A stretch of 36,754 nucleotides of DNA, taken from positions 1-36,754 of IMG/VR virus record IMGVR_UViG_3300020428_000037; one strand, given 5' to 3'. Within the stretch, counting starts at the first letter, position 1. Each line of letters starts with the position of its first letter. Origin of the DNA: a virus. A program made the position numbers and the translations under genes. The notes beneath the pieces are model-generated. The model saw nothing but the letters and a program-made list of their open reading frames with translations. It had not been told where the DNA came from and searched no databases. Of this stretch, positions 1 to 36,574 are shown in pieces.

Positions 1-61
1 AGTCTAGCTGATGAGGTTTAATTAACCGAAACTAGGGTATTAATTTACCCTAGTCCTAGAC
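1..61 (+). ncRNA. Type I hammerhead ribozyme, copy 1
   Basis: All elements of a hammerhead are present in order. Stem I 5' strand GTCTAG is at 2-7 and core CTGATGA at 8-14. Stem II is GGTT (15-18) with AACC (24-27) around a 5-nt loop. GAAA is at 28-31. Stem III is 8 bp (32-39 with 46-53) around a TTAATT hexaloop. The cleavage triplet GTC is at 53-55, and stem I 3' strand CTAGAC (56-61) pairs perfectly with 2-7. Stems II and III are closed and stem I is open, so this is type I. Predicted cleavage is after C55. The next gene starts at 91 with AAAGGAG before it, so cleavage would leave a 35-nt leader with a 5'-OH. Every helix differs in sequence from the copy at 36336 while pairing is kept. Confidence 0.93.
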
Positions 62-90
62 AATCAAGTCTAAACATAAAGGAGAATATT

Positions 91-543
91 ATGAATAAAA
101 TTGAATATAAAAATATGTGTGATGCTATTGAAAAAATGGTTGAGTTAGAATTAATATTTAACCAATCAAAATTTTATGGTGCTATTAAAAACTGGATAAG
201 TGGTGAAGATTTTTGCCAAATGTTTTCCCGTCTTTACCCTTTTTATTATCAAACATTATATAGGAATAGGGATAGCCGTGATATTATTTGGGAGTATTGG
301 AGCCGTAAAAAAGACGAAATAGATACCTTTAATATTTATGTTAAAATTGAGGGTGGTTTACAGTTAGGTATTATTACTTGTTACAGAGCAGGTCAATGGC
401 AATCTGATGATGATTATGCGTTAAATTTTGAGTTAGGTTATGAGCATTTCAACGACAAAGAAAATGTGCCTTTTGTTAGTTTTGAATCTTATGAAGATTT
501 TAAATATACTAATCAAATTGACAATGACACGAATCAAAAGTAA
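91..543 (+). CDS. Hypothetical protein, first gene after ribozyme copy 1
   Basis: Predicted 150-aa protein that I do not recognise. It is rich in aromatic and acidic residues, with many Tyr and Trp in residues 48-75 (for example LYPFYYQ and IIWEYW). It has no signal peptide, membrane segment or catalytic motif that I can see. The start is supported by AAAGGAG about 8 nt upstream. The leader between the hammerhead cleavage site and this start closely resembles the leader after the second ribozyme (AAGTCTA, then ACATAAAGGAG), so the ribozyme and the ribosome-binding leader look duplicated as one block. It is the first of a run of small plus-strand genes. Confidence 0.8.
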   Translation: MNKIEYKNMCDAIEKMVELELIFNQSKFYGAIKNWISGEDFCQMFSRLYPFYYQTLYRNRDSRDIIWEYWSRKKDEIDTFNIYVKIEGGLQLGIITCYRAGQWQSDDDYALNFELGYEHFNDKENVPFVSFESYEDFKYTNQIDNDTNQK

Positions 544-35366: not shown

Positions 35367-36341
35367 ATGAAAAAATTAAATATCAAAGGTCTTAAAGGTT
35401 CAGCAGTCAAAAAAGAGATTGAGGACACTATGTCAGCCAATATTCTAGAAATGATGAACCAACCAGGCTCAAATCACTGGTCCAAGAATTGGTCAACCAA
35501 TTCAGCTATGAACCAAGACGGCACACCTTATAGAGGTTACAATGCCTTAATATTACCTTGGGTTAAATATGATATGGGTTACAAGTCCGATTTTTGGGGT
35601 ACTTTCAAGAATTGGAAATCCAAAGGCTTTTCAGTTAAGAAAGGCGAATCATCAACGGCAATTATCTTTTCATCACCAGTATTAGAGGATTACGAGGACA
35701 AAGACGGCAACACCAAACAAAGACCTAAATTTTGGTTATATAAGGTTTATAGCGTTTTTAATGCACACCAAGTTCAAAATGAGCAAGGTAAGTTGGCAAG
35801 TAATTGCGAGCCTTACATGATGAAAAGACCTGCCGAGGTTCAATTTACCATGGACTTAACTCAAAAGGTTATTGACTCATATCTTACAAGCCAAGACATA
35901 GAGTTAAAAGAAGGTGGCAATAGAGCGTATTACAGTCCTAGCCAAGATTTTATTGGTATGCCTAAAAAGTCCTCATTTTTTGATAATGGTGTAACGGCAG
36001 AACATAGTTATAAATCCACGCTATTACATGAGATTGGCCACAGTACAGGTCACGACTCAAGGCTTAAAAGAAACATATCCAATATGTTCGGCGATGATGA
36101 TTATGCCTTTGAGGAGTTAATAGCAGAATTTACGGCCGTGTTCATGTCAGCCCATACAGGTTTAGCGGTCAGTCCACCAATGAACCATGCTAGTTATATT
36201 AAAAGCTGGAATAAAAGGTATCACGAGGACAGCCGATACATTGTCAAGGCTATCAGCAAAGCCTCGAAAGCCTGTCAGTTTATCATGGATAATTCATGCC
36301 TAGCAGAACAACAGGAAGAGGAGGTATCAAAGTCAGCCTAA
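35367..36341 (+). CDS. ardC: ArdC-like antirestriction protein
   Basis: Predicted 324-aa protein. The N-terminal ssDNA-binding ArdC domain shows NHWSKNW, PYRGYNALIL (residues 54-63) and FWGTFKNWKSKGFSVKKGE (76-94). The C-terminal zincin-like metallopeptidase domain has HEIGHSTGH (221-229) with the downstream acidic ligand region EELIAEF (249-255). ArdC proteins travel with incoming single-stranded DNA on plasmids and phages and protect it from restriction. AAAGGAA precedes the ATG. Its stop codon TAA (36339-36341) lies inside stem I of ribozyme copy 2, so translation termination and ribozyme folding overlap physically. Confidence 0.88.
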   Translation: MKKLNIKGLKGSAVKKEIEDTMSANILEMMNQPGSNHWSKNWSTNSAMNQDGTPYRGYNALILPWVKYDMGYKSDFWGTFKNWKSKGFSVKKGESSTAIIFSSPVLEDYEDKDGNTKQRPKFWLYKVYSVFNAHQVQNEQGKLASNCEPYMMKRPAEVQFTMDLTQKVIDSYLTSQDIELKEGGNRAYYSPSQDFIGMPKKSSFFDNGVTAEHSYKSTLLHEIGHSTGHDSRLKRNISNMFGDDDYAFEELIAEFTAVFMSAHTGLAVSPPMNHASYIKSWNKRYHEDSRYIVKAISKASKACQFIMDNSCLAEQQEEEVSKSA

Positions 36342-36393
36342 CTGACGAGGATTATATATCCGAAACTAGGTCTTAATTGACCTAGTCTTAGGC
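36336..36393 (+). ncRNA. Type I hammerhead ribozyme, copy 2
   Basis: Stem I 5' strand GCCTAA is at 36336-36341 and core CTGACGA at 36342-36348. Stem II is GGAT/ATCC (36349-36352 with 36358-36361). GAAA is at 36362-36365. Stem III is CTAGGTC/GACCTAG (36366-36372 with 36379-36385) with a TTAATT loop. The cleavage triplet GTC ends at 36387, and stem I 3' strand TTAGGC (36388-36393) pairs perfectly. Compared with copy 1, base changes in stems I, II and III are compensated by their partners, which is direct covariation support. Predicted cleavage after C36387 leaves a 40-nt leader for the 48-aa gene at 36428. Confidence 0.93.
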
Positions 36394-36427
36394 AATAAAG
36401 TCTATAACAACATAAAGGAGAAACATT

Positions 36428-36574
36428 ATGAATGATGCAATTTTCATAAGTTTAATAATAAGTCTAATATTTGCTGGAGTTTCAGCATTAGCATACTGGA
36501 TGGCTCTACCAACATTAGAGCAATTCGACAATAAAGAGAACTTCTATAAATCACTAACAAAGGAGGATTTTTAA
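36428..36574 (+). CDS. 48-aa single-pass membrane protein
   Basis: A 48-codon frame with AAAGGAG ahead of its ATG. Residues 5-27 form one membrane helix (IFISLIISLIFAGVSALAYW), followed by an acidic cytoplasmic-type tail ending LTKEDF. It is the first gene of the RNA segment that the two ribozymes would release. Its stop is one nt before the ATG of the next gene. Function unknown. Confidence 0.7.
   Translation: MNDAIFISLIISLIFAGVSALAYWMALPTLEQFDNKENFYKSLTKEDF

Follow-up and report, generated by a model that had tools for sequence, protein, structure and literature searches.

Hammerhead ribozymes with the upstream gene's stop codon in or against their 5′ limb: probable punctuation between phage genes

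Introduction

Hammerhead ribozymes of prophages flank single genes and cleave in vitro, and a hammerhead set around ardA of A. tumefaciens cleaves in E. coli; it was also proposed in 2011 that the prophage hammerheads process long transcripts to mRNAs of the length of one gene (Perreault et al. 2011, PMC3088659). The gene-flanking arrangement, the cleavage and the single-gene mRNA proposal are thus already known from that work, the main text of which does not mention stop codons. In 2017 the role of hammerheads in phages and bacteria was called an open question (PMC6155905).

Two further systems resemble parts of the arrangement described here. In the RiboJ insulators (PMC7536230) a hammerhead and a following hairpin likewise provide each gene with a uniform, cut 5′ leader, but these devices are engineered, sit after promoters and do not overlap with an upstream stop; the likeness is one of working only and implies no descent. 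In E. coli, ribosomes at a stop codon repress an RNA hairpin a few bases downstream, an effect that is lost beyond ~27-30 nt (PMC4824070). These ribosome-repressed intrinsic terminators are similar to our case in that an RNA structure lies a few bases from the stop, where a terminating ribosome can hinder its folding, but they act once, during transcription, whereas a ribozyme remains able to act once the ribosome has left.

Here we describe hammerheads found in the IMG/VR virus record IMGVR_UViG_3300020428_000037 (the window, i.e. the whole stretch of 36,754 nucleotides that was analysed) and in many other viral contigs. Like the hammerheads of Perreault et al., they are repeated between varied phage genes and occur beside an anti-restriction gene (ardA there, ardC here). 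In addition we describe the rule that places the upstream stop in the 5′ limb, C-terminal residues encoded by the ribozyme and a leader hairpin.

Results

Two hammerheads in the window

We built a covariance model from 54 other hammerheads, excluding the window and its closest relatives, and it gave exactly two matches in the 36,754-base window, at 1-62 (E 2.8e-16) and 36335-36394 (E 3.8e-16). The second match (copy 2) lies at the end of an ardC-like gene:

35367..36341, + strand, ardC-like anti-restriction gene, 324 aa, matching phrog_7245 (PHROG anti-restriction protein) with E 1.7e-70
36336..36393, + strand, hammerhead ribozyme copy 2, type I topology, from covariance model and predicted fold
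36336-36341/36388-36393, + strand, stem I, GCCUAA paired with UUAGGC
36339..36341, + strand, ardC stop TAA, the three bases that close the 5′ strand of stem I, read directly
36342-36348, + strand, core CUGACGA (DNA CTGACGA)
36349-36361, + strand, stem II, GGAU-UAUAU-AUCC
36362-36364, + strand, GAA
36365-36386, + strand, stem III, ACUAGGUC...GACCUAGU
36387, + strand, C17 of the cut site GUC, with the cut expected after C36387 as deduced from the core
36414..36420, + strand, Shine-Dalgarno-like AAAGGAG of the gene after copy 2, read directly
36428..36574, + strand, small downstream ORF of 48 aa, read directly, which would begin the 3′ product

The first-pass annotation had read the ardC TAA as the final three bases of the 5′ strand of stem I (GCCTAA, then CTGACGA), and this is exactly what stands at 36336-36348. 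The final ardC codons are TCA GCC TAA, the AGCCTAA part of which falls in the ribozyme consensus. The stop-in-stem placement is kept in two related contigs (L001 and L002) and in most ArdC relatives, and divergent ArdC homologues followed by the same ribozyme also end in ...SA before the stop. Elsewhere in the window, positions 1209-2501 match the PHROG beta-glucosyl-HMC-alpha-glucosyltransferase (E 4e-49), which suggests DNA modification beside ardC.

The first match (copy 1) lies at the other end of the window:

2..61, + strand, hammerhead ribozyme copy 1, from covariance model and predicted fold
2-7/56-61, + strand, stem I, GTCTAG/CTAGAC
8-14, + strand, core CTGATGA
15-27, + strand, stem II
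31-54, + strand, stem III
55, + strand, C17, with the cut expected after C55
78-84, + strand, AAAGGAG ahead of the downstream gene
91..543, + strand, downstream gene, 150 aa, starting 36 nt past the expected cut

The copy 1 ribozyme, with GTCTAG followed by CTGATGA, is as the first-pass annotation had read it, but its further claim that this TAG stops a gene spanning the window edges holds only if the contig is circular. No terminal repeat was found at the window ends, the gene at the window's end extends in the related contig L002 more than 300 nt beyond the window's end point and lacks a ribozyme there; the reading of GTC TAG as the stop of an edge-spanning gene is therefore possible but unproven. 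The window's first base is one base ahead of the copy 1 ribozyme and L002 ends within the same cassette; such contig ends at or near the repeated ribozyme cassette are consistent with assembly breaks at repeats. The relative G002 is colinear with the window (~68-91% identity) but permuted relative to it, so that the window probably represents a permuted genome that is almost complete, with its ends in a variable cassette region. At the position of copy 1, G002 has the stop in loop II.

Identity of the ribozymes

Both window copies match the type I hammerhead core CUGANGA ... GAAA ... NUH, and in their predicted folds three helices surround the core, with the open end at stem I. RF00163 (Hammerhead_1) and RF03152 (RAGATH-1-hammerhead) are the best Rfam family matches of both copies, which share with these families the core, the type I topology and the stem arrangement, but score below the gathering cut-offs: 19.2 and 24.2 bits against 34 bits for RF00163, and 23.0 and 28.4 bits against 56.3 bits for RF03152. 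Because of these scores routine annotation misses both copies. As the hammerhead structure and core are present, the low scores weaken the Rfam label, not the ribozyme call.

In an alignment of 61 diverse copies CTGA-GA, GAAA and the T before the cut are invariant, and 99.9% of the cells are paired (61% after shuffling). All three helices covary, including all 6 pairs of stem I, and pairing was ~27-39% when the partner strand was slid; the covariation score was 0.95, as opposed to 0.18 for shuffled and at most 0.16 for slid alignments. RNAalifold, unprompted, returned the same structure. We have high confidence in the identity of these elements as ribozymes, as we have in the stop rule described below. 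Self-cleavage of the window copies would be expected after H17, the cut site deduced from the core.

Related hammerheads in viral contigs

A first search pattern, in which the core and part of stems II and III were fixed and stem I was left free, found 82 stretches in viral contigs, and a second pattern added at least 120 more. Stem I was fully paired in 74/82 of the viral first-pattern matches versus 1/13 of those from GTDB genomes, and when 0.81 Mb of Markov-resampled sequence was put through the structural scanner there were 0 matches. Among the matches listed there were 288 distinct hammerheads at 167 loci in viral contigs. Only one of 14 pattern matches in GTDB genomes passed the hammerhead scan (L092, position 3785, minus strand); it comes from Flavobacterium sp. 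A45, a strain which may carry a prophage with the hammerhead.

The elements are often in tandem: 64 locus-strands have at least two copies and 35 at least three, with a maximum of 9, and copies never occur on both strands of one locus. As in the gene-flanking arrays of Perreault et al., several hammerheads stand in the same orientation beside single phage genes or small blocks of genes (the window has two). Most elements with a called upstream gene (229/246) are also followed by a codirectional ORF, and the distance from the expected cut to the downstream start is mostly 22-44 nt. Dense arrays with a ribozyme at nearly every gene junction were seen at L056 (9 copies in ~4 kb), L016, L007 and L024, and some leaders in these arrays lack Shine-Dalgarno motifs; our searches gave no cultured relative for these arrays.

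A blastn search with ardC and its ribozyme found no match among GenBank phages, and the L056 and L016 regions had no plasmid match and no isolate match apart from a 66-base microvirus match. The matches of copy 1 to Flavobacterium phage elemoB and others were weak and short and were rejected, the 24 kb examined having no hammerhead. In PaP3, which has been cited as a hammerhead carrier, no hammerhead scored above the Rfam cut-offs.

Position of the upstream stop codon

We numbered positions from the core C (zero) and took the first base of the stop codon as its position in the 246 elements with a clear upstream ORF. The stop lies between -16 and +14 in 228/246 (93%), in 186 upstream gene clusters, and never later; the first base past the expected cut is at +37 or later. 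Stops were found at -16 to -9 in 62 elements, at -8 or -7 (across the edge of the six-base stem I) in 38, and at -5 to -3 (within stem I) in 71, including 50 at -3 as in ardC. A further 31 form the core UGA at +1 and 26 lie in loop II at +11 or +14. The remaining 18 are farther upstream than -16, some of them perhaps due to wrong ORF calls. Antisense ORFs showed no comparable stop peak.

To avoid bias, the count was repeated with all elements whose gene runs to at least -9, taking the stop wherever it was found. The gene's own frame was stopped by +14 in 193/193, while the other two frames were stopped by +16 in 243/386 (Fisher 1e-30); with one element per gene cluster the figures were 143/143 and 187/286 (5e-21). 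Similarly, frame-0 genes reaching stem I had a stop at -3 in 50/50, compared with 56/143 elements behind genes in other frames (dereplicated, 43/43 vs 51/119, 6e-13). A universal three-frame stop cassette can be rejected, only 86/288 elements closing all three frames by +16. The stops in the gene's own frame are thus maintained or selected, for reasons on which the frame comparison is silent.

The distance between stop and ribozyme does vary, a finding which the first-pass annotation had regarded as counting against its proposal and which is borne out in part. In ArdC homologues the stop is at -3 (eight), -5, -8 and -12, and near-identical copy-1 ribozymes close unrelated genes in three different frames. 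The stop is TAG in stem I in L002, UGA in the core in L001, and UAA in loop II in L004, L037 (twice), L045 and L066. Translation of the ribozyme's 5′ limb in a single frame gives the proteins of the last four loci, otherwise unrelated, a common C-terminal tail, SLADEV; frame-2 genes in general end in S-x-(T/A/S)-D-E-x. It follows from the varied positions that the element supplies the gene end, and that placement in stem I is one solution among several. Thus, when the stop-in-stem placement noted for ardC is compared among homologues, its general part stands (nearly all of the 246 stops are in or against the 5′ limb) and its specificity for stem I does not. What is conserved is that the stop lies in the 5′ limb or abuts it, since stops vary from -16 to +14 and the same ribozyme ends genes in three frames.

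Leader hairpin and competing folds

In the window's group the leader carries the stem I 5′ strand a second time, and the freed 3′ strand can pair with this repeat:

36389..36404, + strand, alternative hairpin of the copy 2 3′ product, TAGGC (stem I 3′ strand) with GTCTA (36400-36404), excluding stem I
57..72, + strand, alternative hairpin of the copy 1 3′ product, TAGAC with GTCTA (68-72)

The same hairpin was also seen in L003, L012, L035, L075 and L196. Leader hairpins with at least 5 pairs occur in 14/168 dereplicated elements, compared with 3.5 ± 1.7 when the leaders are swapped (highest value 9 in 500). A family-wide version was dropped, loose criteria giving 44 against an expected 34 ± 4.6; only the strict version for a subset stands. 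When the 5′ limb is covered, the leader hairpin is the predicted fold. Its role could be to cap the 5′ end created by the cut, to make religation harder or to act as a competitor of stem I.

At 36332-36346 of the window, GUCAG (ardC end and stem I) can pair with the copy 2 core CUGAC, and this upstream fold is ~4.5 kcal/mol more stable than the copy 2 hammerhead in context, according to a prediction that leaves out tertiary contacts. The pairing may possibly be a folding trap opened by translation.

Discussion

We think it probable, at odds of roughly two to one, that these type I hammerheads serve as punctuation between genes, cleavage yielding single-gene mRNAs. Our confidence in punctuation by cleavage is moderate because it rests on analogy with the tested arrays. 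The structure, covariation, position and stop rule are observed; cleavage of these copies and the fates of its products are inferred. The more stable competing fold predicted for copy 2 and the 18 stops that lie farther upstream speak against this reading. The proposed cassette consists of a stop codon, a self-cleaving ribozyme, a short leader and a ribosome binding site. The upstream ORF closes immediately ahead of stem I, inside it, at the core UGA or in loop II, so that the second half of the ribozyme (GAAA, stem III and the cut site) is never translated and the cut would not take away the stop. Two constraints would suffice for the placement: ribosomes must be kept off the region responsible for folding and cleavage, and the stop must remain with the upstream fragment.

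Hammerhead cleavage leaves a 2′,3′-cyclic phosphate and a 5′-OH end. Cleavage after GUC would split the polycistronic transcript into an upstream mRNA, which retains its stop and whose 3′ end, bearing the cyclic phosphate, is capped by the hairpin of stem III, and a downstream mRNA beginning with a short 5′-OH leader. In the window's phage group the freed stem I strand could refold into a small hairpin at the 5′ end of this leader. The same cassette is used again behind unrelated genes in all three frames. Here and in many other phages, one short sequence thus terminates the protein and probably cleaves the mRNA into single-gene pieces as well.

A terminating ribosome has a footprint on the mRNA, and the first-pass annotation suggested that it covers stem I and makes cleavage dependent on translation. 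The position is as suggested in that nearly all of the 246 stops lie on or against the 5′ limb, where the ribosome would be in contact with stem I or with the core; that the stop itself lies in stem I is true of some genes only. A ribosome terminating in the 5′ limb would hold the stem I 5′ strand, the cut would wait until upstream translation slackens, and in some groups the stem I 3′ strand would pair instead with the GUCUA repeat of the leader. Such gating is physically reasonable, given that in E. coli a ribosome positioned on a stop codon represses hairpins close by (PMC4824070), and the mutually exclusive leader hairpin, enriched as described above and predicted to form when the 5′ limb is covered, speaks for it. 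However, the stop position is imprecise (-16 to +14), most of the family has no leader hairpin, and hammerheads can cut once ribosomes have gone, which means that coverage may do no more than postpone cleavage. A switch is also unnecessary, since the same pattern would be expected of compact genomes in which translation ends ahead of the catalytic half and the cut. For these reasons we consider translational gating unlikely.

It is also conceivable that the ribozyme is functional but its overlap with the stop is not, the overlap resulting from trimmed intergenic DNA and from conserved letters that tend to supply stops. The median gap at ribozyme-free codirectional junctions is 18 nt, the core UGAUGA always closes one frame, and the codon at -3 in stem I is TAA, TAG or TGA in 136/288 elements. 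General compactness may partly be the cause of the stop rule. As a full account it is quite improbable, because closure of the gene's own frame in 193/193, when all three frames are closed in only 86/288, means that the frame of the gene determines which stops are kept or selected. That the repeats act mainly as DNA, as short conserved seams at which gene cassettes recombine, while any ribozyme activity is a by-product or has disappeared, would fit the near-identical cassettes behind unrelated genes and the ends of the window and of L002 at the cassette, but is very improbable, as selection for DNA identity alone would not give three covarying helices with the catalytic core kept.

For the stop rule, the frame statistics, the ribozyme-encoded tails and the leader hairpin we found no earlier report in the open-access literature; their novelty is provisional because the search covered open-licence papers only. 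In 186 upstream gene clusters the stop is tied almost without exception to the 5′ limb, and this comparison is strong evidence for an action of the ribozymes on translated mRNAs at gene borders; if gating were true, the near-universal placement of the stop would be its signature. For annotators the hammerhead can serve as a marker of gene ends, which the current Rfam cut-offs miss. The stop rule also makes the role of phage and bacterial hammerheads open to simple tests.
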